DNA from: Brevundimonas vancanneytii | Lineage (GTDB): Bacteria > Pseudomonadota > Alphaproteobacteria > Caulobacterales > Caulobacteraceae | Assembly (NCBI GenBank): GCA_945861515.1 | Contig: CAMAVA010000009.1 | Span: 1-38,280 of the forward strand | Direction of reading: 5' to 3' | DNA length: 38,280 nt | Shown here: positions 803 to 38,280 of the stretch, in pieces | Layout of the letters: each line of letters starts with the position of its first letter | How positions within the stretch are numbered: position 1 is the stretch's first letter | Notes under the pieces: generated by a model | Told to the model about the DNA's origin: nothing | The model's database searches: none | The model's input: the letters and a program-made list of their open reading frames with translations, nothing else | Made by a program: the position numbers and the translations under genes

Positions 803-3800
803 CTAGACTTCCTCCAGAAAGGCGACCCCGGGAGAGGTTTTCAGCGCCCCCCGCAGGGACGCGTCGAGGGAATAGAACCCGGGGAGCTTCAGTTCCACCT
901 CTCGCCCACCGCCCAGACCCGCGACCAGAATGATCTCTCCGCCCCGAGGTGAAACGGCCCCGGTGAGCCGCTTCTTCAGGGCCTCGATCTCGGTGGTGCC
1001 AGGAGAGACATGGACCCTCAGGCCCGCCGCCACGGCCTCGATCGACTTGTCCACAGTCTCCGCGTCATCCCCGAAGAACCGGACCTCGCCGTCGCGGGAC
1101 TTGGCCCGGACCCTCAGCACCACGGCCTTGCCGGGTTCCAGGATGTCCCGGCACTTGCGAAGCGCTTCGGGGGGAAACAACACTTCGTATTCACCGGTCG
1201 GATCGGACAAGGAGACGAAGGCGAATTTCTCCCCGCTGGGGCTGGCCCGTTCCTGACGGCGGCGCACCATGCCGGCCATCTTGAAAGCCTCGGCGCCAGC
1301 TTCGGCCTGAGGAATGGCGTCGGCCAGCAGGGTGACCCGCCGGCGCCGCAGAACTTCCACCATGTCTTCGAGCGGATGGCCCGTCAGGTAGAAGCCGACG
1401 GCGGACAGTTCTTCATCGAGCCGTCGGATCTGGTCCCAGGGTTCGGTGCGCGGCAGCCTGGGTCGCGATGCCTCCGACTGTTCTCCGCCAAACAGACTGA
1501 CCTGCGCCGAGGCGCGGTCGGCGGCCAGGCTCTGGCCATGGGCCATGAGCATGTCGGCCGACGCGATCACCTGGGCGCGGTTGGGATGGATGCTGTCGAG
1601 CGCCCCGGCCCGGGCCAACCCTTCCAGGGCCCGCTTGTTGACCTGTCGTGGATCCACCCGCTCGATCAGGTCAAACAGATCGACGAAGGGACCGCCCTCC
1701 CGCCGCACCGAGACCAGATGTTCCATGGCCGACAGTCCGACATTGCGGATGGCGCCGAGGGCATAAAGGACGGCCCCGTCCTCCACCTCGAAATCGGCCC
1801 CGGACCGGTTCACGTCCGGAGGCCGGACCGGAACGCTGCAGCGACGGGCGTCCTGATAGAAGATCGCCAACTTGTCGGTATTGGAGATATCCAGGCTCAT
1901 GGACGCCGCCATGAACTCGACCGGCGCATTGGCCTTGAGCCAGCCGGTCTGGTAGGAAATCATCGCGTAGGCGGCGGCGTGGCTCTTGTTGAAGCCGTAT
2001 CCGGCGAATTTTTCCACCAGGTCGAAGATCGATTTGGCCTGGGTGGCATCCACGCCCCTTTCCGTCGCCCCGGCGACGAACCGGGCCTTCTGCTGGGCCA
2101 TCTCCTCAGGCTTCTTCTTGCCCATGGCGCGGCGCAGGAGGTCGGCTTCACCCAGGCTGTAGCCCGCAAGGATCTGGGCGATCTGCATCACCTGTTCCTG
2201 GTAGACGATGATGCCGAAGGTCTCCTTCAACACCGGCTCCAGAGTGGGATGGAGATAGTCCACCGGCTTTCGCCCGAACTTGCAGTCGACAAAGCTGTCG
2301 ATGTTGTCCATCGGCCCCGGCCGATAGAGCGAGATCAGGGCGGTGATCTCCTCGATGGTGGTCGGCCGCAGCTTGCGCAGGGTGTCGCGCATTCCCTGGC
2401 TTTCCAGCTGGAACACACCGACTGTCTGGCCATTGGCCATCATCTCGTAGGAGGGCGCATCGTCCAGGGCCAGTGTCGACAGGTCGATCTGGGCCCCGCG
2501 CTTGGCCATGTGCTTCAGGGCGCGGTCGATGACGGTCAGGGTCTTGAGGCCGAGGAAGTCGAACTTCACCAGACCCGCGCTTTCGACCCATTTCATGTTG
2601 AACTGCGTGGCCGGCAGTTCGGATCGCGGATCCTTGTAGAGGGGCGTCAGCTGGGTCAGGGGCCGGTCACTGATCACTACCCCTGCCGCGTGGGTCGAAG
2701 CGTTGCGGAACAGGCCCTCAAGGCGAAGCGCCACATCCAGGCAGAGCTTGACCGAAGGATCGCTGTCGCGCGCTTCCTTCAGCCGAGGCTCGATTTCAAT
2801 GGCCTTGGCCAGGGTCGTCGGATTGGCCGGATTGTTCGGCACCATCTTGCAAAGCCTGTCTACAAGGCCCAGCGGCAGCTGCATCACCCGGCCGACGTCC
2901 CGCAGAACGGCCCGAGCCTGCAGTGTGCCGAAGGTGATGATCTGGGCGACCCGGTCCTGGCCATACTTGTGCTGGACGTAGGAAATGACCTCTTCGCGTC
3001 GCTCCTGGCAGAAATCGATATCGAAGTCGGGCATCGAGACCCGCTCGGGATTGAGAAACCGCTCGAACAGCAGGCCAAAGCGAAGGGGGTCCAGATCGGT
3101 GATGGTCAGGGACCAGGCCACCAGAGAACCAGCCCCCGAACCACGGCCAGGCCCCACGGGAATGCCATGGGCCTTGGCCCATTTGATGAAGTCCGAAACG
3201 ATCAGGAAATAGCCCGGGAACCCCATGGTCTGGATCACCCGAACCTCATGCTCGAGGCGCGCCCAGTACTCTTGCTCGGGAGCGGCCAGTTCGACGCAGG
3301 CCAGGCGGGCCTTCAACCCTTCCCGGGCCTGGTGTTCCAGCTCATCGGGCTCGCTTCGACCGGCGCCCGTATCGAACCTGGGCAGGATCGGATCACGTTT
3401 CCTGACCATGAAGGCGCAGCGTCTGGCGATGTCCAGGGTCTGGTCACAGGCTTCAGGCAGGTCTGCGAATAGCGCCCGCATCTCGGCGGCCGACTTGAAA
3501 TAGTGCTCCGCCGTAACTCTGCGCCGCTCATCCTGTCCGACAAAGGCGCCGTCGGCGATACAGAGCAGGGCGTCATGCGCCTCGTGCATGGTTCGGTCGG
3601 CAAAGAAGACATCATTGGTCGCCGCGAGCGGCACATCATGGGCATAGGCCCAGGCCACCAGCGACGGCTCAGCCGCCGCCTGGACCGGCAGGCCATGGCG
3701 TTGCAATTCGACATAGAGCCGATCCCCGAACACCCGGTGCATTTCCGCCAGGGCCCGGTCGCCCTCGGCGGTCTTGCCGGCAGCATAGAGGGGGTCGATC

Positions 3801-4234
3801 GGACCATCCGGCCCACCGGACAGCAGGATCAGTCCCTGGCTGTGTTGCGCGACCCGGTCCCAACTGACCGAAGGCTCACTCATTCCGTCGCCTTCCAGAT
3901 AGGCAGCGGACGAAAGTTCGGAGAGATTGAGGTAGCCGGTTTCGTTCTGGGCCAGCAACAAGAGGGTCGGCTTGCGCGCCCACCGCTCAGGAGGGCCTTC
4001 CCCGAGGCCTGTCACGGGAAGTGCGCAGCCCACCAGGGGCTGGACGCCCGCGTCCTTGGCTGCAACGGAAAATTCCAGGGCGCCAAAGAGATTGGCGCGG
4101 TCGGCGATCGCCACCGCCGGCATGTCCGCCTTGGCCGCCAGCAAGGACAGGGCATCGGCCTTGATCGCCCCCTCGAGCAGGGAATAGGCCGAACGGACCC
4201 GCAAATGGACAAAGCCGTTCGCCAGGTCCGCCAT
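803..4234 (-). CDS. dnaE: DNA polymerase III alpha subunit
   Basis: Replicative DNA polymerase catalytic subunit, 1143 aa, normal for DnaE1. An N-terminal PHP domain begins at [15 protein letters not shown] (residue 8 on). The polymerase palm carries [16 protein letters not shown] and the active-site PDFDIDF with D403 and D405; the third catalytic Asp is D559 in [10 protein letters not shown]. Tandem HhH and an OB-fold form the C-terminal third. Two PHP metal ligands look lost (R14 where active PHP sites have His in HxRxH, and D45-R46 where active sites have D-H-G), so the domain is probably structural and proofreading is left to DnaQ. The ATG at 4234 has GAGGGAG about 8 nt upstream. It lies 40 bp after the SidA-like gene with no obvious promoter between, and ends 209 bp before rpsB. 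Confidence 0.97.
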
Positions 4235-4274: not shown

Positions 4275-4364
4275 TCAGGCCGCCATATAGGCCACAGAAC
4301 ACATCATCCAGACAAAGCCGACCACTGATGCCAGGGCCAGTGTTTCGCGAGCAATCTTGGCCAT
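4275..4364 (-). CDS. sidA: SidA-like SOS-induced cell division inhibitor (29 aa)
   Basis: A 29-codon gene starting MAKIARETLALA and ending CSVAYMAA, with one predicted membrane helix covering about residues 8-28 and a short basic N-terminus. The ATG at 4364-4362 is preceded by a strong GGGGAGG 5 nt away, much better than chance for so short a frame. Caulobacter crescentus SidA is also a 29-aa single-span inner membrane peptide; it is LexA-regulated and blocks division by contacting FtsW and FtsN (established knowledge). Here the length, topology, SOS boxes upstream and position beside dnaE all agree, so I infer orthology although I could not align sequences. dnaE begins 40 bp downstream. Alternative: an unrelated small membrane peptide that is SOS-controlled. 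Confidence 0.8.
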   Translation of the reverse strand: MAKIARETLALASVVGFVWMMCSVAYMAA

Positions 4365-4383
4365 TCCTGCCTCCCCGTTCCGA

Positions 4384-4398
4384 GTTCCGGGTTTGTTC
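4384..4398 (-). promoter_or_regulatory. Perfect LexA (SOS) box
   Basis: GTTC-CGGGTTT-GTTC (plus strand) is an exact match to the alphaproteobacterial/Caulobacter SOS box GTTC-N7-GTTC. It covers the -10 hexamer (4396-4401) and the expected start site of the promoter driving the SidA-like gene, the classical position for LexA repression. A further GTTC lies at 4377-4380. Confidence 0.8.
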
Positions 4399-4424
4399 CT
4401 ATTCTTGTTTTGTTCCACAGGCAA
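4396..4424 (-). promoter_or_regulatory. Promoter of the SidA-like gene
   Basis: Minus-strand -35 TTGCCT (4419-4424), 17-bp spacer, -10 TAGGAA (4396-4401). The -35 is good and the -10 weak. The promoter is overlapped by both LexA boxes and lies about 30 bp upstream of a strong ribosome binding site and ATG. Confidence 0.5.
4401..4415 (-). promoter_or_regulatory. Second, near-perfect LexA box
   Basis: ATTC-TTGTTTT-GTTC (plus strand) matches GTTC-N7-GTTC at 7 of 8 fixed bases. It starts 17 bp from the start of the perfect box and fills the -35/-10 spacer of the same promoter. Two adjacent boxes suggest tight or cooperative LexA repression. Confidence 0.6.
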
Positions 4425-4468: not shown

Positions 4469-4789
4469 TCAGTCCCCGGACTCGCTGTTCATGGTCGGCT
4501 GATGAAGGGCCACGATATCGGCCAGTTCCGCCTCCCTCACCGTACGGGTGACGTTGAGACGGACGAAGATGGTGTTTGCGCCATGCGCCTTGCGGGCTCG
4601 GTCCCAACCGCTGTGCACGCCCTTGTGAAGACATTCCGTCTCGCCGGCGAAGACGATCGTCTTTTCATCTCCCTTCAGTTTGACGAACAGGAAATTGGCT
4701 CCTGTGGGAGAAATGGGTCCAGGGCCGTCCAGGGGCTGATACCGGTAACCATTGCCGGATTTGCCGCCGAATTCGAACTGGTGGGTCAT
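4469..4789 (-). CDS. Conserved-looking hypothetical protein, possibly GIY-YIG-like
   Basis: 106-aa soluble protein that I do not recognise with certainty. It starts at ATG 4789 with GAGGGAG about 8 nt upstream; a 6-bp hairpin (GCTCCG/CGGAGC, 4805-4820) sits directly before that site. The order of elements, an aromatic/glycine-rich start, IVFAGET, a central WDRAR, then REAELAD and a terminal HQPTMN, recalls the small GIY-YIG nuclease fold (Y-x-G-x-T, Arg helix, Glu, terminal P-x-N), but the canonical GIY and YIG tyrosines are not obvious, so this is weak. No membrane segment or signal peptide. It lies upstream of the SidA-like gene, with a 104-bp gap containing that gene's promoter, and downstream of two palindromic repeats. 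It may be a separate transcription unit. Confidence 0.75.
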   Translation of the reverse strand: MTHQFEFGGKSGNGYRYQPLDGPGPISPTGANFLFVKLKGDEKTIVFAGETECLHKGVHSGWDRARKAHGANTIFVRLNVTRTVREAELADIVALHQPTMNSESGD

Positions 4790-4882: not shown

Positions 4883-4934
4883 TAGAGCATGTTCCGATAA
4901 GTGTGAAGCGGTTATCGGATCGAAACATGCTCTA
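4883..4934. repeat. Palindromic repeat element 1
   Basis: Imperfect palindrome: outer arms TAGAGCATGTT (4883-4893) and AACATGCTCTA (4924-4934), inner arms CCGATAA (4894-4900) and TTATCGG (4912-4918), with an 11-nt loop and a 5-nt asymmetric bulge. It has the look of a dispersed intergenic palindrome (AGAGCATG type) that I associate with alphaproteobacterial genomes. Copies elsewhere cannot be checked here. Confidence 0.75.
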
Positions 4935-4947
4935 ACACTTTGAATCG

Positions 4948-4995
4948 GAGCCTGTTTTTCCGCTATGATCGGTTCGATCATAGCGGAACAGGCTC
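4948..4995. repeat. Palindromic repeat element 2
   Basis: Palindrome 13 bp from element 1: outer arms GAGCCTGTT (4948-4956) and AACAGGCTC (4987-4995), perfect 12-bp inner stem CCGCTATGATCG/CGATCATAGCGG (4960-4971 with 4975-4986), loop GTT, and an extra TTT on one side. It ends 43 bp downstream of the lolD stop codon and may act as an mRNA 3'-end stabiliser or terminator for the proS-lol transcript. The outer arms share the AGC-TGTT theme with element 1. Confidence 0.8.
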
Positions 4996-5038
4996 TAACG
5001 GGTTTGTCAGCACAATACGAGCCGCAAGCGGCGGGTGA

Positions 5039-5725
5039 TCAGAGTACCCGCTCTTCCAGATGTCCGTCCTTGAGGGCGAACACCCGGTCCATGTATCGCG
5101 CCAGTTCAAGATTGTGGGTCGCGATAAGCGCAGCGACGCCCTGCTGGCGGGCAGCGTCATAAAGCGCCTGGAAGACCTGGGCGGCCGTTTCTGGGTCCAG
5201 GTTGCCGGTCGGCTCGTCGGCCAGCAACAGGATCGGCTCATTGGTCAGAGCCCGGGCAAGCGCCACCCTCTGCTGTTCGCCGCCTGACATCTGGGCCGGT
5301 TGATGTTCCAGCCGGGCGGCAAGACCCAGCTGGGTCAGAAGCGCCTCGGCCCGATCCCGCGCCCATGCCTTGTTGCGGCCGGCAATCAGGGCCGGCATGG
5401 CGACGTTTTCAAGGGCGGTAAACTCGGGCAACAGATGGTGGAACTGATAGACAAAACCGATGGAGGACAGCCTTGTCAGAGTGCGGGGCCGATCAGCCAT
5501 CCGGCTGCAGTCCTGTCCGGCGATGAAGACGGAACCTTCGGTCGGGTGCTCCAGCAGACCTGCAGCGTGGAGCAATGACGATTTTCCGGACCCGGAAGGC
5601 CCGATGAGACCGACAATCTCGCCCGGCATGACATCGAGATCGACACCCTTGAGAACGGTCAGCTCAACGGTTCCGGTATGGTAAGTCCGCTTGACGCCCC
5701 GAAGGGACAGGGTGGGTTCACTCAT
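5039..5725 (-). CDS. lolD: Lipoprotein-releasing ABC transporter ATP-binding protein
   Basis: ATPase of the Lol system, which extracts mature lipoproteins from the outer leaflet of the inner membrane and hands them to LolA. 228 aa, the usual size. Walker [10 protein letters not shown] (residues 42-50), Q-loop Q94 in [16 protein letters not shown], which is the LolD-specific stretch, ABC signature MSGGEQQR (146-153), and Walker [14 protein letters not shown] (165-177). ATG at 5725 overlaps the 3' end of lolC/E by 8 bp, so translation is coupled to the membrane subunit. No gene follows for 249 bp apart from the two palindromes. Confidence 0.96.
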
Positions 5726-6992
5726 AGCGAAGCGCCTCCACCGGATCGAGCCGAGCGGCCCGCAGCGCCGGCGGCAGTGTGGCCAGGAAGCTGACCAGCA
5801 GCGACCAGCCGGTGATCATCGCAACCTCTCGCCACTCGATACGGGCGGGAATGTGGGTCAGGAAATAGACGTCTGCATTGAAGACCTCGGCGCCGGTGAC
5901 ACGCTCCACGAGATGCTGGATGCCGGCAATGTTCAGACAGAACAACACTCCCAGAACCAGCCCGGCGAATGTTCCGGCAACCCCGATGGCCGCGCCGGAC
6001 ATGAAGAATATCCGCAGAATCCCGGCCCGGCTGGCGCCCATGGTGCGCAGGATGGCAATGTCCCGTCCCTTGTTCTTCACCAGCATGATCAGGCCAGAAA
6101 TGATGTTGATCGCGGCGATCACCACTATGAACATCAGGATCAAGCGCATCACGTTGCGCTCGATCTGCAAGGCATTGAAAAAACTCTGGTTCTTTTCGGT
6201 CCAGTCAGTGATGACGGCTCCGGGCCCGGCGGCCCGCGCAATTTCGGCCTTCATGTCCGGCGCCCGATCCGGGTCCGTCAGCTTGACCTCGATGACATCG
6301 ACCGCGCCTTCCTTTCCGAAGAACAGCTGGGCCTGTTCGAGCGGCATATAGGCGAAGGCCTGATCATATTCGCTCATGCCCACCGCAAAGAGGCCGCCAA
6401 CGGTGTAGTCCTTCTGGGCCGCGGAAACGCCGAAGGCGCTTGTGGATCCGCTGGGCGAAATCAGGGAAACGGCATCGCCGGGGCCGACCCCCAGCGAAAG
6501 CGCCAGTCGCTGGCCCAGCAGAATGATGTCACCGCCGTAGTCGCCTTCTCCATAGCCCTCCAGCGAGCCAGGCTTGATGTTCTCCGAGACGATTTTCGTC
6601 GCCTTGACGTCCTCGCGCGAAACGCCTCGGACGATGGCCCCGCTGATCTGGCCGCGACCGATCACCATGGCCTGGGCCTCGACCATGGGGGTCACCTGTG
6701 TGACCCCGGGAACCGCTCGCAGTCGCTTGACGGTCTCAGAACGTTGCTGATCGCTCAGCGGCGCTCGGGCCACATAGAGGTGACCGTTGAAGCCAAGGAT
6801 CCGCGACAGCAGTTCTGTACGGAAGCCATTCATCACGCTCATCACGACGATCAGGGCGAAGACCGCCGCCGTGATCCCCAGAAATGCCAGGATGGAGATC
6901 AGCGCGACCCCGGCGTCCCGGCGGCGTGCCCGCAGGTAGCGGCCTGCCAGGGCCCGCTCCCAGAGACTGAACGGCGGCGCTGCATTAGCCAT
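5718..6992 (-). CDS. Lipoprotein-releasing ABC transporter permease (LolC/LolE family)
   Basis: 424-aa membrane subunit of the Lol complex. Layout is typical: a cytoplasmic N-terminus with an alternating basic patch (RYLRARRRD), the first helix at about residues 28-52 ([19 protein letters not shown]), a large periplasmic domain, then an FtsX-type three-helix bundle (about 275-300, 315-350, 380-405). The motif [19 protein letters not shown] after helix 1 is characteristic. Only one LolC/E-type gene is present here, so either the complex is a homodimer of this protein or the partner is elsewhere; I therefore give no C or E symbol. It starts 15 bp after proS and overlaps lolD by 8 bp. Confidence 0.92.
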
Positions 6993-28560: not shown

Positions 28561-29178
28561 TCATTTCGATTCTGCCTTTTGGTCGCCCGGCAAAACATAA
28601 CTCGCCCCTTCCCAGGGGCTCAGGAAGTCAAAGGCGCGGAACTCGGCGATCTTTACCGGCTCATAGACAACCCGCTTCAGCTCGTCGTCATAACGAACCT
28701 CGACATAGCCGGTCATGGGGAAGTCCTTGCGCAGCGGATGCCCGTGGAAACCGTAGTCGGTCAGAATGCGGCGCAGGTCGGGATGTCCCTCGAAGAAGAT
28801 ACCAAACATGTCGAAGGCTTCACGCTCGAACCAGTCCGCCACAGGAAAAACGCCAGTGACGCTGGGGACCGGCGTATCCTCGTCCGTCGAAATCTTGAGC
28901 CGCACCCGGTGGTTCTTCACCATCGACAGCAGGTGATAGACGACTTCGAACCGTTGACGGCGTTCGGGATAATCGACTCCGCACAGGTCGATCAGCTGAT
29001 GAAACCGGCCGTCAGCATGATCCCGCAGCAGGGTCAGGGCCTCGACCACCCGGTCGCGGGGCGCGGTCAGGGTCAGTTCGCCAAACGCCATCTCGGCGGA
29101 TGTGATGGCCCCGTTGGTGCTGGCGACCAGGGTTTGGCCCAGGGTTTCCAGGGCCGTGTCGGCGGCGGTCATGCTCAT
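28561..29178 (-). CDS. nuoC: NADH-quinone oxidoreductase subunit C
   Basis: 205-aa 30-kDa-type subunit of the complex I connecting arm. Conserved [11 protein letters not shown]-type strand ([13 protein letters not shown]), then [24 protein letters not shown] and [14 protein letters not shown], the family signature. Start ATG at 29178 overlaps the nuoB stop as ATGA. A 43-bp gap separates it from nuoD. Confidence 0.97.
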
Positions 29179-29753
29179 CGCTCGATCGTCCCGGTGCGAC
29201 GGATCTTTTTCTGCAGCTGCAGAACGCCATAGACCAGAGCCTCGGCGGTCGGCGGACAGCCTGGAATATAGATGTCGACCGGCACGATCCGGTCACAGCC
29301 GCGCACCACGCTATAGCTGTAGTAATAGTAGCCGCCACCATTGGCGCAGCTGCCCATGCTGATGACGTAGCGAGGCTCGGGCATCTGGTCGTAGACCTTG
29401 CGCAGGGCCGGGGCCATCTTGTTGGTCAGGGTGCCGGCGACGATCATCACGTCGCTCTGGCGTGGGCTGGCCCGGGGCGCGAAGCCGTAACGTTCCAGGT
29501 CGTATCGCGGCATGGAAGAATGCATCATCTCGACCGCGCAACAGGCCAGGCCGAAGGTCATCCACATGAGCGACCCTGTCCGGGCCCAGGTGATCAGGTC
29601 GTCTGCGGCCGCCACGACAAATCCCTTGTCGGCCAGGCGGTCGGAAATCGCATCGAAATAGGGGTCATGCAGGCGGGCGTCATAGCCCTCGACCGTGGTG
29701 CGCCCTGCGGACAGGGCCGGAGCCGTCTGACCGGCCGGAACGATTACTCCCAT
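29175..29753 (-). CDS. nuoB: NADH-quinone oxidoreductase subunit B
   Basis: 192-aa subunit carrying terminal cluster N2, which reduces quinone. Cluster ligands: adjacent C71-C72 in [11 protein letters not shown], a third Cys in [10 protein letters not shown] and a fourth in [10 protein letters not shown]. The ATG at 29753 lies 10 bp inside the 3' end of nuoA and has GAAGGG upstream; an ATG 7 codons earlier is in frame but its extra residues are not family-like. A proline/alanine-rich N-terminus of about 25 residues precedes the fold. Confidence 0.96.
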
Positions 29754-30121
29754 TCCAGGGCGCCCTTCTTCCATTCATAAACAAAGCCGATGGTGAGAAC
29801 GCCCAGGAAGGTCATCATCGACCAGAAGGCGAACTGCGAGACGTCCGGCGGTAATTTCATCAGGCTGACCGCCCAGGGAAACAGGAAGGCGACCTCCAGG
29901 TCGAAGATGATGAACAGGATCGACACCAGATAGAACCGCACGTCGAATTTCATGCGTGAGTCATCAAAGGCGTTGAACCCGCACTCATAGGCCGAAACCT
30001 TCTCCGGATCCGGCGCGCTCGGGGCCAGGATGGCTGCGCCGAAGAGGAAGACCAGACCCAGCACCGCCGCGATCCCGATGAAGATCACGATCGGCAGGTA
30101 CTCGAGAAGGAAGGCGTCCAT
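29744..30121 (-). CDS. nuoA: NADH-quinone oxidoreductase subunit A
   Basis: First gene of the nuo operon; 125-aa membrane subunit (ND3 homologue) with three helices. The conserved loop [23 protein letters not shown] contains the Cys that reports the active/deactive state in homologues, followed by [20 protein letters not shown] (here [20 protein letters not shown]). ATG at 30121; its end overlaps nuoB by 10 bp. A candidate promoter lies 27-55 bp upstream. Confidence 0.97.
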
Positions 30122-30147
30122 GGGATTTCCAGGCGGGAGTCGGGCGC

Positions 30148-30176
30148 GTTGTAGACCAAGCTTATCGGGGGTTCAA
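30148..30176 (-). promoter_or_regulatory. Candidate nuo operon promoter
   Basis: Minus-strand -35 TTGAAC (30171-30176) and a -10 TCTACAAC (30148-30155), which matches 7 of 8 positions of the Caulobacter GCTANAWC element; 16 bp separate the hexamers TTGAAC and CTACAA. Transcription would start near 30141, about 20 nt before nuoA. Upstream, the rest of the murB-nuoA gap contains a 6-bp stem CCTGCG/CGCAGG (30191-30213) without a T-run, so murB has no clear terminator. Confidence 0.55.
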
Positions 30177-30252
30177 AGGAGATTGCGGACCCTGCGACGA
30201 AGGAGGCCGCAGGAACGGGAAAGGCGCCTCGGCAAAAGGCTTGCAGACCTGG

Positions 30253-31146
30253 TCAGCGCCTGCCGATCCGCTTGATCTCCCATTCGAGCAGAATGCCGGT
30301 CTGCGACATGACGTCGGCGCGCACCTGCTCGCCGAGGTCTTCCAGATCGGCTGCCGTCGCCTCGCCGGTGTTGATCAGGAAATTGGCGTGCAGAGGTGAA
30401 AACATCGCGCCGCCATGCAGTTTTCCCCGCCAGCCGGCCTGATCGACCAGTTTCCAGGAGGAATGACCCGGCGGGTTCTTGAAGGTGGAGCCGCCGGTTT
30501 TGTCGCGGATCGGCTGGGTCGTCTCGCGCCGGGCTGTAATCTGGGTCATGCGGTCATGAATTGCTTCGGGCGCCTCGGCCGCGCCCTCGAAGACCCCGTC
30601 CAACACAATCAGTCCGGCGTCCTGCAGGGCGCTGTGGCGATAGCTGTAGCCAAAGCCCTCGCCGGAGATGTCATGCACCTGCCCCTGCCGGTCCATGACC
30701 CGCGCGGACCGGATGACCTGCATCGTCTCGGAGCCATAGCAGCCAGCATTCATGATCACAGCGCCGCCGACCGTACCCGGAATGCCGGCGTAGAACTCAA
30801 GTCCGGTGATCCCAGCGTCCGCCGCCCTGCGGGCCAGGATCGCGTCTGGGACGGCAGCGCCAGCCCTGAGGGACGTGGCATCCAAGATTTCGACGGTGTT
30901 GAAACCTCGACCCAGCCGGATCACCACGCCTTCGACGCCCCCGTCCCGAACCAGAAGGTTGGAGCCGACGCCGATCGTCAGGACCGGAACGGCCGGATCC
31001 AACGCGGCGAGAAACTCCGAAAGGTCTCCTTCGTCGGAAGGAAGAAACACCGCATCGGCCGGTCCCCCCACCCGAAGCCAGGTGAAGGGGGCCAGGGCTT
31101 CATCCCTGATCAGCTTTCCGCGGACAGGAGGCAGGTCCAGGCTCAT
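30253..31146 (-). CDS. murB: UDP-N-acetylenolpyruvoylglucosamine reductase
   Basis: Reduces UDP-GlcNAc-enolpyruvate to UDP-MurNAc with NADPH and FAD. 297 aa, type II-like short form. FAD-binding [47 protein letters not shown], the catalytic Arg in FGYSYRHS, the proton-donating Ser in GGSTFKNP and the C-terminal catalytic Glu in [10 protein letters not shown] are all visible. ATG at 31146 overlaps the stop of the preceding small gene as ATGA. It is the last mur gene in this block; nuoA follows 131 bp later instead of ddl-ftsQAZ. Confidence 0.96.
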
Positions 31147-31418
31147 CGCAGCGCCGCCGCCTTTCGCGCCGCCGTGTCGGCATGCCAGAGCACCAGGCGC
31201 ATGGCCTCGGCAGGGTCATAGGTCTCGAACACGGGCGTCCGGACCTGGCGTTCCATCAGGAACATTTCGAACCGGACGGTGGCGGGCGGAGAACTGACAT
31301 CCAGCCAGAAGCCGTCCGTATAGCCCCGCCCCTTGTCGAGCATCGGCAGAAAACGGCGCGGTATGCGCCTGCGGCCCGCCTCGTCCTCGATCTGACGAAT
31401 GAAGCTGGCGCTGTTCAT
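31143..31418 (-). CDS. Small conserved-position hypothetical protein between murC and murB
   Basis: 91-aa soluble, Arg-rich protein: [20 protein letters not shown], then [34 protein letters not shown], ending AARKAAALR. No signal peptide, membrane helix or motif I recognise. ATG at 31418 starts 10 bp after the murC stop, and the stop overlaps the murB ATG as ATGA, so it is tightly built into the mur operon. The frame opens 16 codons earlier, but that part overlaps murC. A cell-wall-related role is only an inference from position. Confidence 0.78.
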
Positions 31419-31428
31419 GCGGCGGCCA

Positions 31429-32850
31429 TCAGGCTTGCAGAGCCTGGAGCTGGGCCGGCAAGGCATAGGACCAGCCGGTTATGTCGCCAGCCCCAAGCAG
31501 GACCACCAGGTCGCCGGACCGCGCCTCTTCGGCCACCATGGAGGCCAGCTCGCCCGGGTTCGCCAGCGGCAGGGCGCGCCGGTGGCCAAACCGCTTCAGT
31601 CCCTCGATGAGAGCATCCCGGCCCACGCCGTCCAGCGGCGCTTCGCCGGCCGGATAGACGTCGGCCACAATGACCGTGTCGGCGTCATTGAAGCAGGCTG
31701 AAAACTCGGACATCAGATCCCGCAGCCGGCTGTAGCGATGGGGTTGCACCACGGCGATCACCCTGCCGCCTGGCGTCACCGCCCGGGCCGCCTTGAGCAC
31801 GCTGGAAATCTCCACCGGATGGTGACCGTAGTCATCGACGATCCGGACGCCGCCAACCACGCCGGTGGTGGTAAACCGCCGCTTGACCCCGCCAAACCCG
31901 GCCAGGCCCTTGCGGATGGATTCGTCGTCCACCGAGAGCTCCCGCGCCACGGTAATGGCGGCCAGGGCATTCAGCATGTTGTGGTCGCCGGCCATGGGCA
32001 GGGTCAGGCCCTGCAGCAGTCTCGAGGGGCCCTCGCGCGGCGTAAACTGCACATCGAATTTCGCCCCGTCTGGTCCCATGGAAACGTTCAGGGCCCTCAC
32101 CTCAGCCTGGGGATTGACCCCATAAGTCACCAGCCGGCGGTTTTCGACACGGGCCGCCAGGGCCTGGACCTCCGGATGGTCGAGGCAGACTGCGGCAAAG
32201 CCGTAAAAAGGTATGTTTTCGACAAAGTCCCGAAAGGCCCGCTTGACGCTCTCGAAGTCGCCATAGTGGTCCAGATGTTCCGGATCGATATTGGTGACCA
32301 CGGCGCAGGTGGATTTCAGTTTCAGGAAGGACCCGTCACTCTCGTCTGCCTCGACGACGATCCAGTCGCCCTCCCCTACCTTGGCGTTGGTGCCGTAGGC
32401 GTTGATGATGCCGCCATTGACCACGGTGGGATCCAGCCCGCCAGCATCCAGCAGGGCCGCAATCATCGAGGTGGTGGTGGTCTTGCCGTGGGTGCCCGCG
32501 ACGCCGATGGAAAACTGCAGCCGCATCAGTTCGGCCAGCATCTCGGCGCGGCGCACCAGCGGCAGTTTGCGCTCACGAGCGGCCACCATCTCCGGATTGT
32601 CGGCTTTGACGGCCGTGGAGTAGACGACGGCGGAAGCGGCCTCGACATGGGCCGGGTCGTGGCCGATGAAGATCCGAGCGCCCAGCTGCTCCAGCCGCTC
32701 CGTATTGGCCGAAGCCTTCACGTCGGAGCCCTGGACCACATAGCCGACCCGCAGCATGATCTCGGCGATGCCGCTCATGCCGATCCCCCCGATGCCGATG
32801 AAATGGACAGGACCGAGGTCGAAGGGAACAGGGCGGTGGCGCGCGATCAT
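31429..32850 (-). CDS. murC: UDP-N-acetylmuramate--L-alanine ligase
   Basis: Adds L-Ala to UDP-MurNAc, the first peptide step of peptidoglycan precursor synthesis, in the cytoplasm. 473 aa. Rossmann-like UDP-binding N-terminus [19 protein letters not shown]-loop [13 protein letters not shown] (117-129), [22 protein letters not shown], and [10 protein letters not shown] are all in place. I chose the ATG at 32850 ([10 protein letters not shown]); the only earlier start is a TTG 13 codons upstream, and neither has a strong ribosome binding site. A 69-bp gap separates it from murG. Confidence 0.96.
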
Positions 32851-32919
32851 GATTGGCGGATTAGAGGAAATTCGACGACGCCGCCACAACGTCGTTTGGG
32901 TGAAGGGATACCGGTCCGA

Positions 32920-34020
32920 CTAACGGCCGGATGCCGTCCGCTCAACCAGATCGGCAAGATCTTCCGCCGCTCGGGGCCTTGCCACGGAGCGGGCTCCAGC
33001 TGACATTCTCTCCAGCCAGACAGGGTCGGACAGCAACGCCTTCAGAGCGCCAGCCAGACTGTCGACCGTCAGTTCATCTTCAAGGGCCACGGCTGCGGCG
33101 TCAGCGTCTTCCAGCAGCCTTGCATTGAACCGCTGGTGATCATCGGCCGCGATCTTCAAGGGGACCAGAATCGAGGGCTTTCCGGCTACGGCCAGTTCGC
33201 AGACAGTCGAGGCGCCGGAACGCCCGATGACGATATGGGCGGCCCCCAGGCGGCTTGCCATGTCGCGGAAGAAGGGAGCGACCTCGGCCTTGACCATGGC
33301 GTTGGCATAGGTTCGCCGCGCCATGTCCATGGACTCCTTGCGGGTCTGCTGCTGCACATCCAGTCGAGCGCGGACCGCTTCCGGCAGCCGAAGGATCGCC
33401 TCGGGCGTCAGTTCGGACAGCAGCCGGGCGCCCTGGCTGCCGCCGGTGATCAGCAGACGAATAGGTGCATCGGCGGTCGGCGCTTCGTAGGGGCGATCGA
33501 ACAAGGCCCTGATCTCGGGGCGAACCGGATTGCCCACCACATGGGCCCGGTCCCGCACAGCCGGCTTTGCCAATTCCAGGGTCGGAAAGGCGCAGGCAAC
33601 CTGGGTTACGCGGGAGGCGAGGAACCGGTTGACCCGGCCCAGGACCGCGTTCTGCTCATGGATGACGGTCGGTCGCTTCTGGGCCAGCGCGGCCAACAGG
33701 GCCGGAAGGCTGGGATAGCCGCCGAAGCCGACGACGATCGCCGGGTCCAGTCTCTTGAACGCAGAGCGGGCCTGAAGGACGCCTTGCAAAACCGCCCAAC
33801 CTGCCCGGATCATGCCAAGGATATCCCCGGATCTGGCCGTGGCGGCTGACAGGGCGATCCGCTCATCGGCCGGGAACTTGTCGGCATAGAGGGCGCCGCG
33901 CTCATCGGTCGCCAGCACGACCCGCCATCCGCGGGCAATCAGCACCTCGGCCAGGGCCTGGGCCGGAAAAAGATGGCCTCCGGTGCCCCCGGCGGCGATG
34001 ACGGCGAGACGGGCTGGCAT
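32920..34020 (-). CDS. murG: UDP-N-acetylglucosamine--undecaprenyl-PP-MurNAc-pentapeptide GlcNAc transferase
   Basis: Converts lipid I to lipid II at the inner face of the membrane. 366 aa, GT-B fold. Gly-rich loops AAGGTGGHLFPAQALAE and VVGFGGYPSLPALLAA, then HEQNAVLGRVNRFL, LITGGSQGARLLSEL and GRSGASTVCELAVAGKPSILVP with the UDP-binding Ser/Glu. ATG at 34020, 8 bp after the ftsW stop. Confidence 0.97.
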   Translation of the reverse strand: MPARLAVIAAGGTGGHLFPAQALAEVLIARGWRVVLATDERGALYADKFPADERIALSAATARSGDILGMIRAGWAVLQGVLQARSAFKRLDPAIVVGFGGYPSLPALLAALAQKRPTVIHEQNAVLGRVNRFLASRVTQVACAFPTLELAKPAVRDRAHVVGNPVRPEIRALFDRPYEAPTADAPIRLLITGGSQGARLLSELTPEAILRLPEAVRARLDVQQQTRKESMDMARRTYANAMVKAEVAPFFRDMASRLGAAHIVIGRSGASTVCELAVAGKPSILVPLKIAADDHQRFNARLLEDADAAAVALEDELTVDSLAGALKALLSDPVWLERMSAGARSVARPRAAEDLADLVERTASGR

Positions 34021-34028
34021 CGCGACCG

Positions 34029-35198
34029 TCAGGCGTAGGCGCCGGCCAGGGGCGATGCCTCGCCCTGGTCGAACGCGCCTGGTCGGCGGCGTGTCAGGCC
34101 CAGCGCCATGCCCATGGTCAGTCCCATCGCCAGCATGGATGAGCCTCCGTAAGAGATGAAGGGAAGCGTCATGCCCTTGGTTGGCGCCAGGTTCAAGTTC
34201 ACAGCCATATTGATCAGAGCCTGCTGCCCGACGAGGACAAACAGCCCGGCCGCCGCAACCTGTTCGAATGGATCGGACAGCTTCATCGACCGATAGAGCC
34301 CGCGGACCATCAGAAAGGCAAAGACTCCGATCAGGGCCAGCGAAAACACCAGACCATATTCCTCGGCGGCGACTGAATAGATGAAGTCGGTCTGCAGGTC
34401 GGGAACGCCCTGCTTCATCACCCCTTCGCCCGGACCACGGCCGAAAAGTCCGCCATTGGCTATGGCTTCGGAAGCCTTGGTAATCTGATGAGTGTCGGCG
34501 CCCTCCGGAGACAGGAAACGGTCCACCCGGCTGCGAGCATGGGGAAGCAGCAGATAGATCGCGCCAAGTCCGGCGGCCGCCGAGCCGCCCATGATGGGGA
34601 TCCAGGATATGGGCACGCCGGCCATCCAGAAGGCCGCCCCGAAGGCGATGGTGATGAGGATGGTCTGGCCGACATCCGGCTGGATGATCAGAAGGGCGAC
34701 AGCCGTAAAGTAAAGGCCAAAGGCGATCGTCACGCCGGGCACGCCCTGCCCCTTCTGACCCTCCGCGAACATCCAGGCGACCAGCACGATCAGCGCCGGC
34801 TTGAGAAATTCAGACGGCTGAAGCGTAAAACCGGCAAAAGATATCCAACGGGTTGCGCCCTTTGCTTCGTGGCCCAGGAACGGCAGGGCCGCCATCACCA
34901 GGATGGCTCCGACATAGATGAAGAACGCTGCGCGCTTGATGCCGCGCGTGGAGAGGATCGAAACCAGCCCGACCAGTCCGCAGGCCCCGATGGCGAACAG
35001 ACACTGACGAACGGCGAAATGCAGCGGATCATCCAGTCGCAGTCGAACGGCTGCCGCCGGACTGGACGTGAAGGAAAGCAGGACGCCAAGTGCGATCAGG
35101 ATTCCGGTCGCGGCCAGAAGGCTGTGATCAACCGTCCACCACCAGTTGGCCAAGGGTGTCCGCTTGGTGCGGGAAACGAGATGCTGCTTGGCGTTCAT
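34029..35198 (-). CDS. ftsW: Peptidoglycan glycosyltransferase FtsW
   Basis: SEDS-family septal peptidoglycan polymerase of the divisome, 389 aa, about ten helices. Features: FLGHEAKGATRWISFAGFTL with the QPSEFLKPA that follows, IIQPDVGQTILI with the catalytic Asp, the long periplasmic loop around HARSRVDRFLSPEGADTHQI, and PDLQTDFIYSVAAEEYGL and MTLPFISYGGSSM near the end. ATG at 35198 overlaps the murD stop as ATGA. In Caulobacter FtsW is a direct target of the SOS inhibitor SidA, whose likely homologue lies in this window at 4275-4364. RodA is the paralogous alternative but the dcw context makes FtsW secure. Confidence 0.96.
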   Translation of the reverse strand: MNAKQHLVSRTKRTPLANWWWTVDHSLLAATGILIALGVLLSFTSSPAAAVRLRLDDPLHFAVRQCLFAIGACGLVGLVSILSTRGIKRAAFFIYVGAILVMAALPFLGHEAKGATRWISFAGFTLQPSEFLKPALIVLVAWMFAEGQKGQGVPGVTIAFGLYFTAVALLIIQPDVGQTILITIAFGAAFWMAGVPISWIPIMGGSAAAGLGAIYLLLPHARSRVDRFLSPEGADTHQITKASEAIANGGLFGRGPGEGVMKQGVPDLQTDFIYSVAAEEYGLVFSLALIGVFAFLMVRGLYRSMKLSDPFEQVAAAGLFVLVGQQALINMAVNLNLAPTKGMTLPFISYGGSSMLAMGLTMGMALGLTRRRPGAFDQGEASPLAGAYA

Positions 35199-36613
35199 GC
35201 CCTGACCTCCCGGGCGGCCTCGGTCCGACCGAGATTGAGAACGGCCTGCCGAAAGGCTTCGCCCCGCGCCTCGAAATCGGAAAACTGATCGAACGAGGCG
35301 GTGGCCGGCGATAGCAGAATGACGGCCTCCTCATCCGTGGAAGCAGCATCCGCAAAAGCAGCCGTGACCGCCGTGGTCATGTCCCCGCAGAGTCGATAGG
35401 CGGCTCTGCCTTCGAGCGTCAGGGCAAAAGCCTCCTGCGCCTCGCCGATCAGATAGGCCCTCTGGATTCTCGGAAACAGGTCGGACAGATCCTCGATCCC
35501 GCCGGTCTTGGCCCGTCCGCCAGCAATCCAGTAAACCCTTGCATAGCTGGACAGGGCCTGACGGGCGGCGTCGGTGTTGGTGGCCTTGCTGTCATTGACA
35601 AAGCGCACCCGGCCGATCTTCTCAACCGTCTCCATGCGATGCGCCAGGCCCGGGAAGGTCATCAGCCCGTTCGACGCCTCGTCCGGCGACAGGCCCAGGG
35701 CCAGGGCGGCGGCATAGGCCGCGGCGGCATTTTGCCAGTTGTGCTTTCCAGGCAATGACCGGGCGCCCGCCAGATCGGCGATATCCGAGGTTCGCTCGCC
35801 GGTGGCGTCATACAGGATGCCGGATAGAGCATAGACGCCCCGGCCCATGGCCTTGCCGGCGCTGATTGGCAGGATGGTGCGGCGGTTTGCAGCGGTTATC
35901 TCGGTGCAGATTCGCTGGCACCAGGAATCGTCCACCCCGATTATCGCGGTGTCCCCCTTGCCCTGATTCAGCAGGATCCGGCGCTTGGCGGCAACATAGC
36001 CTTCCATGTCGCCATGCCGGTCGAGGTGGTCCGGCGTGATATTCAGCAGAATGGCGGCGTCCGGCTTCAGAGAAGACGTCAGGTCCAGCTGGAAGCTGGA
36101 CAGTTCCAGCACATAGACCGCACCGCCATGCATATCGGGAAGGCCGAGCACGCCGTAGCCGATGTTGCCGCCGATGCGGGCGTCACGACCAGCTGACTTC
36201 AGGATATGACCCAGCAAGGCCGTGGTGGTGGACTTGCCGTTGGTTCCGGTAATGGCCGCCACCCGGGGGCGGCGATGGGCAGGCGCGGAATTGATGGTCC
36301 GGGCGAAGAGTTCAATATCGCCGACAATCTCGACCCCGGCTTCCCGCGCTCGAACCACGGTCCAGTGAGGCTTTGGGTGGGTCAGGGGGACGCCAGGCGA
36401 CAGCAGCAGGGCGGCAAAGTCCGACCAGTCCGCAGCCTGCAGATCCACCACGGTCAGACCTTCAGCCTCGGCTTCCTCCCGTCCCCTGGGATTGTCGTCC
36501 CAGGCGACGACCTTCGCCCCGCCGGCGATCAGGGCGCGCGCTGCGGTCAGGCCTGTGCGGCCGAGGCCGAACACAGCGACCTTGCGCCCTTCAAAGCCGG
36601 TGACGGGGATCAT
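35195..36613 (-). CDS. murD: UDP-N-acetylmuramoylalanine--D-glutamate ligase
   Basis: Adds D-Glu to UDP-MurNAc-L-Ala. 472 aa. N-terminal KVAVFGLGRTGLTAARAL, ATP-binding ITGTNGKSTTTALLG (121-135), the carbamylated-Lys/Glu region VLELSSFQLD, NITPDHLDRHG, and C-terminal FVNDSKATNTDAA and LLSPATASFDQFSDFEARG. ATG at 36613, 15 bp after mraY; the stop overlaps ftsW. Confidence 0.97.
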   Translation of the reverse strand: MIPVTGFEGRKVAVFGLGRTGLTAARALIAGGAKVVAWDDNPRGREEAEAEGLTVVDLQAADWSDFAALLLSPGVPLTHPKPHWTVVRAREAGVEIVGDIELFARTINSAPAHRRPRVAAITGTNGKSTTTALLGHILKSAGRDARIGGNIGYGVLGLPDMHGGAVYVLELSSFQLDLTSSLKPDAAILLNITPDHLDRHGDMEGYVAAKRRILLNQGKGDTAIIGVDDSWCQRICTEITAANRRTILPISAGKAMGRGVYALSGILYDATGERTSDIADLAGARSLPGKHNWQNAAAAYAAALALGLSPDEASNGLMTFPGLAHRMETVEKIGRVRFVNDSKATNTDAARQALSSYARVYWIAGGRAKTGGIEDLSDLFPRIQRAYLIGEAQEAFALTLEGRAAYRLCGDMTTAVTAAFADAASTDEEAVILLSPATASFDQFSDFEARGEAFRQAVLNLGRTEAAREVRA

Positions 36614-36628
36614 GACCTGCGGCGCCCC

Positions 36629-37741
36629 CTACCTTAGCTTCAGCGTGGCGAGACCCAGAAAGGCCAGGATCAAGGCCACAATCCAGAACCGGATCACGAC
36701 CGTGGACTCCGCCCAACCGAGCTTCTCGAAGTGGTGGTGGATCGGCGCCATAAGGAAAATCCGGCGTCCGGTTCGCTTGAAATAGGCGACCTGGATCATC
36801 ACCGACAGGGCCTCGACCACGAACAGGCCGCCGACGATTCCCAGAACGATTTCATGCTTGGTCGCGACAGCGATCGCGCCGAGAGCACCCCCCAGGGCGA
36901 GGGAGCCGGTATCACCCATGAAGATCTTTGCAGGCGGGGCATTGTACCAGAGAAAGCCCATGCCCGCGCCGATGATGGAACAGCAGACCACGGCCAGCTC
37001 CCCGACCCCGGGAACGAAATGCACCTGAAGATACTGGGCAAATACGAAATTCCCGACGAGGTAGGCGATCAGGCCAAAGGCCCCGGCTGCGATCATCACG
37101 GGGACGATGGCCAGGCCGTCCAGGCCGTCGGTGAGGTTCACAGCGTTGGAGGCTCCGACAATCACGAATCCGCCGAACAGCAGATAGAACCACCAAAGAT
37201 CGATCAGCAGCCGTTTGAAGATGGGAAACGCGACAGAGGTGGAGAGCGAGGGCGTCTCGGGCGAGGCCGGGGCCAGAAAGACCAGAACGGCGACGGCGAC
37301 GATGGCGACCAGGGTCTGGATCAGCAGTTTCATGCGGCCCGAAACGCCGTCAGTGGTCTGCTTGGTGACCTTGGCATAGTCGTCGAGGAAGCCCAGCAGT
37401 CCGAAGGCGCCGGTCACAAACAGAACCACCCAGACATGGATGTCGCTCAGATCGGCCCAAAGCAGCGTCCCCACCGTCAGACCGGCGAGGATCATGAACC
37501 CGCCCATGGTCGGGGTGCCGGCCTTTTCCAGCACATGCCGTTGTATCCCGTCGGCGCGGATCGGTTGGCCCTTGCCCTGCTTGGCGCGCATCCAGCGAAT
37601 GAAGCGGCTGCCCATGGCAACGGCCACAATGAAGCCTGTAGCAAGCGCCATTCCTGATCTAAAGCTCAGGTACTTGAACAGATTGAGCATAGGGAACACG
37701 TCCCCGTTCCGCTCGAGCCATTGATACAGCAGATAGAGCAT
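36629..37741 (-). CDS. mraY: Phospho-N-acetylmuramoyl-pentapeptide transferase
   Basis: Transfers phospho-MurNAc-pentapeptide to undecaprenyl phosphate, giving lipid I. 370 aa with ten helices. Conserved [11 protein letters not shown]-type start of the family core ([14 protein letters not shown]), catalytic Asp pair in [23 protein letters not shown] with the third Asp, [14 protein letters not shown], and [15 protein letters not shown] at 37741 overlaps the murF stop by one base (TGATG). Confidence 0.97.
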
Positions 37742-38280
37742 CAGCCCTCCCCTCCGGTCCGATACCGCTGCAGCAACGCCGCTGCGACCAGTCCCGCACG
37801 GGAACCGTTCGAGCCCTTGACCATGATCACATCCCCAGGCGACAGCGCTTCGGCCACCTTCGGCGCCAGCTCGGCTGCTGTCAGGGCGTAGCCGCCACGG
37901 CGAGTCGCCGGAAGGGCGTCCCAGAGTGATTTCATCTGGGGGCCAGCAACAAACACCTGGTCCACGTCCGCCTCAACCAGGGGATAGACCAGGGCGGCAT
38001 GCGTGGCCGGGCCGTCCGGCCCCAGTTCCAGCATGTCGGTCAACACCGCAATGCGTCTGCCGGTCACCAGCCTGGCCCCCAGGGTTCTCAGGGCGGCGGT
38101 CATCGAGAGGGGATTGGCATTGTAGCTTTCGTCGATCAGGGTGGCCGTTCCGCCAGCGATCTCAAGGAGCGCTTCTGCCCCCCGCCCCGCAAGCGGTTCG
38201 AAATCGGCCAGCGCCGCCAGGGCCGTCTGGCGGTCGACATCCATGGCCTCGAGCATCAGCAGGGCGCACAGGCCATTCAA
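37741..38280 (-). CDS. murF: UDP-N-acetylmuramoyl-tripeptide--D-alanyl-D-alanine ligase, 5' end outside window
   Basis: C-terminal 179 residues of MurF, which adds D-Ala-D-Ala to complete the UDP-MurNAc-pentapeptide. The visible part includes the end of the central ATPase domain ([13 protein letters not shown]) and the C-terminal Rossmann domain ([28 protein letters not shown]). The coding sequence enters from the right edge, so the ATP-binding P-loop is not in the window; this is a window truncation. Confidence 0.94.

Follow-up and report, generated by a model that had tools for sequence, protein, structure and literature searches.

What does a 29-codon reading frame with tandem LexA boxes in its promoter and dnaE directly behind it encode, and how far does this arrangement extend beyond the genus in which it is found? 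The window (the whole stretch of DNA that was analysed, 38,280 nucleotides) carries the frame on the minus strand at 4275..4364. It consists of 29 codons and a stop; its product, MAKIARETLALASVVGFVWMMCSVAYMAA, is predicted to cross the membrane once, as residues 8-29 can be read to contain no charged residue. A sequence-only reading of the window had described a single-span membrane peptide with a strong ribosome binding site, resembling the Caulobacter division inhibitor SidA, and had noted that so short a gene is easily missed. The mechanical ORF list indeed gives sidA merely as the tail of a 119-aa frame. The interval proposed for the locus, 4275-4424, fits the reading frame and its promoter; dnaE (803-4234) has to be added to it.

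The NCBIfam model NF033228.1, "cell division inhibitor SidA", is a curated equivalog model with a cut-off of 35 bits. It matches MAKIARETLALASVVGFVWMMCSVAYMAA with 56.9 bits over positions 1-29 of 29; no model was matched in a Pfam search of the same peptide. The proposed likeness to SidA is borne out by this full-length match and by orthologues across the family, and the sequence evidence for the identity of the gene (equivalog model, family-wide orthology and operator architecture) supports SidA. As a novelty the gene is ruled out, the family being already in NCBIfam (NF033228.1). The length, the predicted LexA control and the full-length model match are shared with SidA of C. crescentus, which excerpts of PMC4211646 describe as a 29-residue, LexA-induced inner-membrane protein that interacts with FtsW. 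SidA of C. vibrioides DSM 9893 is 62% identical to the window peptide. It had been suggested that the checkpoint might here be extended to another genus. This does not hold: the window genus (g1) is placed with named Caulobacter records, and by this placement the gene is the ordinary SidA of a Caulobacter species. In five loci (L017, L019, L024, L026 and L088, one of them from C. segnis) SidA has 30 residues and starts with MALR.

The start codon and the coding status were assessed with relatives from the window's family. Fifty-five family loci were used, 30 from the family tblastn set and 25 from a second set, after one spurious locus (L056) had been dropped. A Shine-Dalgarno sequence, GGGGAGG, can be read at 4370..4376 (minus strand), and 47 of the 55 sidA copies have GGAG, GAGG or AGGA no further than 16 nt from the start. 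Translation is taken to begin at this ATG because of the GGGGAGG and because the alignments of most relatives begin there; the earlier description of the peptide and its ribosome binding site is thereby confirmed. Among 25 same-genus copies, codon positions 1, 2 and 3 are variable in 16, 9 and 25 of 29 codons, and the median dN/dS is 0.12 (290 pairs). Both the codon-position pattern and the dN/dS support the coding status of sidA. Ten residues (A5, R6, L11, S13, V14, F17, W19, M20, C22 and A25) are invariant among 18 aligned SidA sequences.

Two LexA boxes precede the gene on the minus strand, as had been claimed. The perfect one (box 2) lies at 4384..4398 (forward GTTCCGGGTTTGTTC, coding strand GAACAAACCCGGAAC) and the other (box 1), with one mismatch and thus 7 of 8 positions, at 4401..4415 (forward ATTCTTGTTTTGTTC, coding strand GAACAAAACAAGAAT). 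The likely -35 hexamer, TTGCCT at 4419..4424, was identified by eye in a comparison with relatives, many of which have TTGACG, TTGACC or TTGCAA at this place. The likely -10 hexamer, TAGGAA at 4396..4401, overlaps both boxes. These two hexamers, also on the minus strand, are 17 nt apart, so box 1 would fill the spacer and box 2 would overlap the -10; a consensus promoter scan upstream of sidA reported no sigma-70-type site. Single boxes in the window are not clearly beyond chance: there are 36 sites with at most one mismatch against 25.4 expected, and 36 was reached in 4 of 100 shuffles. The tandem pair at sidA does exceed chance, since the pattern GTTCN7GTTC-N1-4-RTTCN7GTTC occurs once in the 3.42-Mb genome, at sidA, and its reverse not at all. 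A box with at most one mismatch lies within 120 nt of sidA in all 55 family loci; 52 have at least two boxes, 34 have a perfect one, and the reversed motif is found in 4. Some loci (L018, which is C. vibrioides OR37, and L021, L023, L031-L033 and L053) have at least three LexA-like boxes, of which one is perfect and lies at about -64.

Genome-wide there are 93 occurrences of GTTCN7GTTC and 54 of the reversed pattern. Twelve boxes, chosen by eye from the 93, were fetched and proteins were searched at five; SOS-type genes were recognised beside 5 of the 12. These include lexA with a box of its own (TIGR00498, 177.9 bits, cut-off 110.95), ssb (TIGR00621, 161.4 bits, cut-off 53.95) and a PA0069-family radical SAM gene (NF033668, 477.6 bits, cut-off 360). 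An ImuA-like gene (NF033429, 41.4 bits) stays below its cut-off of 150, and radA (TIGR00416) reaches 365.4 bits from an incomplete piece, the cut-off being 403.05. No SOS-type gene was recognised by eye at the boxes of L361, L364 and L367-L371, which may be chance occurrences.

The neighbours of sidA are all on the minus strand. Forty nucleotides downstream begins the gene for the replicative DNA polymerase III alpha subunit, dnaE (803..4234; Pfam PHP, DNA_pol3_alpha and finger). No intrinsic terminator was found between the two genes, the sole weak match lying inside sidA; because of this and the short gap, the SOS promoter probably reads into dnaE. Directly upstream of sidA is a gene for a 106-aa protein (4469..4789) with no Pfam or NCBIfam match, which is present in four of six Caulobacter sidA loci searched, at 49-74% identity. 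Then follow a LolD-like ABC ATPase (5039..5725; ABC_tran), named by resemblance and position, and a LolE-like permease (5718..6992; MacB_PCD, FtsX). A LolE-like sequence was found upstream in 9 of 19 short sidA or micropeptide loci tested, including loci of families f3, f4, f7, f95 and f98, which makes lolE-lolD-x-dnaE the probable ancestral order. Two adjacent inverted repeats (AGAGCATGTT... and AGCCTGTTTTTCCGCTATGATC...) were seen by eye at about 4884-4997, between the 106-aa gene and the LolD-like gene; they resemble an intergenic repeat element.

The presumed target of SidA is encoded in the same window, as had been pointed out: ftsW lies at 34029..35198 (minus strand; FTSW_RODA_SPOVE). 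It forms part of a cell-wall cluster at 29175-38280, within about 34 kb of sidA, the other genes of which were named by eye. Its nearness to sidA is probably a coincidence. The stretch 20-40 kb upstream of sidA was searched in six relatives of the genus and gave no match to ftsW, murC or mraY, so the gene order there differs from that of the window; the neighbours in these stretches can be read as nuo genes. A meaningful linkage of sidA and ftsW was rejected, as none was seen in these six stretches. According to excerpts of PMC4211646, the FtsW substitutions A31K, F145L and A246T suppress one or both of the inhibitors SidA and DidA to differing degrees. Residues A30, F144 and A245 of the window FtsW align with A31, F145 and A246 of FtsW of C. 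vibrioides DSM 9893. As the residues at the suppressor sites keep the wild type, the window FtsW fits the same mechanism, without this being a test of it. FtsW of C. segnis has G at the position of A31, yet the genome retains sidA.

Taken at the level of the single gene, the window very probably holds the Caulobacter sidA, kept off by LexA and encoding a damage-induced inhibitor of FtsW. Binding of LexA, induction by damage, insertion into the membrane and contact with FtsW would be carried over by analogy from SidA of C. crescentus to a gene whose boxes, coding status and orthology are established by sequence comparison, as is the presence of the target. In an undamaged cell, LexA would sit on the tandem boxes, cover the promoter from the -35/-10 spacer to past the -10, and keep sidA off. 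DNA damage would trigger cleavage of LexA through RecA and open the promoter. The 29-residue peptide would then insert its one span into the inner membrane and bind FtsW, and the FtsW/FtsI/FtsN complex would be held inactive, delaying septum closure until repair. By read-through, the same promoter would probably transcribe dnaE as well.

The sequence-only reading had named both FtsW and FtsN as partners of SidA. The first stands; the second is not borne out by the excerpts of PMC4211646, which assign FtsN to DidA and FtsW to SidA, though a contact of SidA with FtsN may have been reported earlier. The substitutions FtsN(L202P) and FtsN(F252L) are reported there to suppress DidA and not SidA. 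DidA of C. crescentus is also a single-span, damage-induced inhibitor of the FtsW/FtsI/FtsN complex (PMC4211646, same excerpts); unlike SidA it has 71 residues, is induced by DriD and not through LexA, and binds FtsN. Two further SOS-induced division inhibitors are YneA of Bacillus subtilis, which is reported to interact with FtsW, and SosA of Staphylococcus aureus. Both are larger than SidA and have parts outside the membrane.

Within the Caulobacteraceae, the window's family, sidA is widespread. A permissive tblastn search (E<=10) gave a match in 359 of 390 genomes. Ten of the 31 genomes without a match were looked at again: the start of dnaE was readable in six, and five of these have boxes and a similar micro-ORF, so at least some of the misses reflect lost sensitivity. 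The sixth (G197) lacks this combination before dnaE. A scan of named records gave 136 relatives, of which 80 loci were kept; their titles include Caulobacter, Phenylobacterium, Caulobacteraceae and broader names. Genus g6 is presumably Brevundimonas, and g4 presumably Asticcacaulis. All 28 members of a family-wide SidA alignment find NF033228.1 at a loose limit (E<=10); one divergent in-family copy (L203) matches neither this nor any other NCBIfam model. In all 53 family loci that could be checked, the next gene on this strand is dnaE, at a distance of 17-326 nt from the sidA stop; two further loci (L013 and L053) stop at contig ends and are outside this count. Second SidA copies in the MAGs G237 and G346 also lie by dnaE, and have the appearance of mixed strains or of contigs present twice.

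Beyond the family, the SidA profile alone finds nothing convincing. The 28-member profile matches 94 of 398 genomes of the order at E<=0.01, and 93 of these belong to the window's family; the remaining match (G622, E=0.008) falls in a 257-aa frame and looks spurious. The position upstream of dnaE is more informative. It had been proposed as the place to look in other Caulobacterales, and a boxed micro-ORF is present there in 15 of 20 loci, 14 of them with a perfect box; the other, L211, has boxes with one mismatch only. In three families (f3, f4 and f5, five of five genomes each) LexA-like boxes are followed by a hydrophobic ORF of 25-31 residues. In family f2, neither a perfect box nor a hydrophobic micro-ORF was found upstream of dnaE in five of five genomes.

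The survey was extended to the class with one genome per family. Two of 105 genomes had no dnaE match; the counts are for 101 other families, and in two of these 101 the region upstream of dnaE was shorter than 200 nt. A perfect same-strand box lies within 600 nt of dnaE in 14 of the 101, whereas 100 shuffles averaged 0.82 and never gave more than 4; the reversed motif turned up two times in total, and six loci have the motif on the opposite strand. In 12 of the 14 perfect-box families, and thus in 12 of the 101, the start of a hydrophobic micro-ORF is no more than 120 nt from the box. Counted over the last 450 nt before dnaE, with ATG, GTG or TTG as start, such an ORF is present in 12 of 14 perfect-box regions versus 3 of 87 without a perfect box (11 versus 2 with ATG only); over the whole region the counts are 12 of 14 and 13 of 87. 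The arrangement is patchy, as 87 of the 101 families have no perfect box and two (L303 and L329) have a box without the micro-ORF. By these criteria the boxed micro-ORF was not seen in 89 of the 101 sampled families.

The peptides from outside the Caulobacteraceae have 25-47 residues, with starts chosen by eye for L213, L235, L237, L238 and L287 among others. NCBIfam, including NF033228.1, matched none of nine such peptides. Three or four copies were compared in each of five families, and the variable codon positions (1/2/3) are 1/0/18 in f3, 7/1/15 in f5, 0/0/11 in f12, 5/2/16 in f64 and 3/0/16 in f95; because the variation is mainly in third positions, these peptides appear to be proteins under purifying selection. 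Two genomes of f98 (L372 and L373) have a micropeptide after LolE-like and LolD-like genes, where a sensor histidine kinase gene replaces dnaE; the LexA-like boxes of both deviate at one position.

Transfer on phages or plasmids was considered and rejected: 16 pattern matches in viral contigs included no confirmed relative, a single match (E=6) came from annotated phages, and plasmids gave none. A separate locus (L162/L171; G236:C3:315099-315185, minus strand) has a 37-residue SidA-like ORF that scores 31.6 bits with the SidA profile. It overlaps both of its neighbours by ATGA, and an integrase (PHROG 1) lies about 3.5 kb away; no perfect LexA box was found within 600 nt. This is possibly a mobile element with a SidA mimic.

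Are the distant peptides relatives of SidA? A profile was built from 22 of them (12 from the class survey, 10 from other Caulobacterales) with no SidA sequence in it. SidA peptides obtain 6 to 26 bits with it; 27 of 28 rank above all 117 negatives (best 6.3), and 26 of 28 outscore each of 200 shuffled versions of themselves. The negatives are 33-residue segments that begin with M and include a hydrophobic stretch; they partly overlap and are not proven membrane proteins. The reverse test is weaker: the SidA profile places 8 of the 22 distant peptides above every negative, and 6 outscore all 200 shuffled versions of themselves, while for several the real sequence does not exceed its shuffles. 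Twelve aligned distant peptides are 17-31% identical to the window SidA. A basic-acidic pair before the span and a tryptophan within it recur among the distant peptides, and what the dnaE-linked micropeptides share with SidA is a LexA box, a hydrophobic span, dnaE as neighbour and often this pair and tryptophan.

A joint profile was then run on 387 genomes of the class; 36 match at E<=0.05, a count in which seeds and family members take part. There were 38 rows, and eight without a locus were left out of the locus check. Thirteen of 20 new hits (outside the family and the seed genomes) lie upstream of dnaE on the same strand, with gaps of 58-221 nt, and 12 of these 13 have a perfect box. At E<=3e-4, 10 of 11 new hits are dnaE-linked; the eleventh is from f98. 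The 13 dnaE-linked hits are not fully independent, since nine come from the genus of a seed peptide. The other four are from non-seed genera: two from f12, and one each from f150 and f154, families that are absent from the seeds. Five hits were discarded as false positives. Three (L352, L354 and L358) are in 113-136-aa frames that read like the start of a larger membrane enzyme, and by eye these frames look DgkA-like; two (L355 and L359) are inside ORFs of more than 120 aa.

The locus is probably an entry to an alphaproteobacterial family of LexA-controlled micropeptides tied to dnaE. We lean, with some reserve, towards the stronger statement that SidA is no peculiarity of Caulobacter and would be the best-conserved branch of an ancient SidA superfamily of this kind, located between lolD and dnaE; in much of the class, SOS would then switch on a septum inhibitor and, by one shared transcript, the polymerase. 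Convergence is the competing account. It would have unrelated membrane spans arising in the same slot, perhaps with other divisome targets, and it concerns the wider family, not the identity of the window gene. It gains from the empty-handed search with SidA alone outside the Caulobacteraceae, from the minority of distant peptides that the SidA profile separates from negatives (8 of 22) and from shuffles (6 of 22), and from the spread of lengths and the low identities. However, a model that contains no SidA recovers nearly all SidA peptides (27 and 26 of 28 by the two comparisons), the slot and its neighbours are held in common, and the basic-acidic pair and span tryptophan recur. Convergence is considered possible, but the less probable of the two accounts. 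Homology to SidA is likely on sequence grounds for f3, f7, f12 and part of f4, because members of these beat all negatives and all shuffles; for others, such as f8, f55, f91 and f96, it is unproven.

The constant position before dnaE also permits a different view of the window gene, namely that the micro-ORF is a leader peptide or attenuator which tunes dnaE after damage, the membrane peptide being a by-product. The 53 checkable family loci, the 13 dnaE-linked class-level hits and the lack of a clear terminator between sidA and dnaE are all compatible with this. A leader would not account for selection on the amino-acid sequence, seen in the dN/dS of 0.12 and in the third-position variation in five other families, nor for the two f98 genomes which keep a relative behind LolE-like and LolD-like genes without dnaE; and SidA of C. 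crescentus acts as a protein on FtsW, as stated in the excerpts of PMC4211646. A leader function is therefore regarded as quite improbable. A membrane-depolarising SOS toxin of the TisB type, instead of a divisome inhibitor, would also be short, hydrophobic, single-span and placed under LexA boxes; curation of the family as SidA and a fixed residue pattern conserved in 18 sequences speak against it, and it is the most improbable of the readings considered. The inhibitor of FtsW remains the preferred reading of the window gene.

Among the open-licence PMC matches listed, judged by title and the start of the abstract, there is no description of SidA outside Caulobacter or of a dnaE-linked family; likewise, the open-licence matches listed hold no description of SOS division inhibition in alphaproteobacteria beyond Caulobacter. 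Most members of such a family would have escaped annotation through their length of less than 50 codons. The window gene is a known checkpoint in another Caulobacter species, and the result for the wider locus weighs more. A LexA box with a membrane ORF of 25-47 codons between lolD and dnaE provides a list of candidate inhibitors, and the diverged peptides would be natural variants with which to map how a single helix shuts off FtsW. If the family is real, alphaproteobacteria in which no SOS division inhibitor has been described would gain one, and a single operon would couple a division checkpoint with expression of the replicative polymerase.
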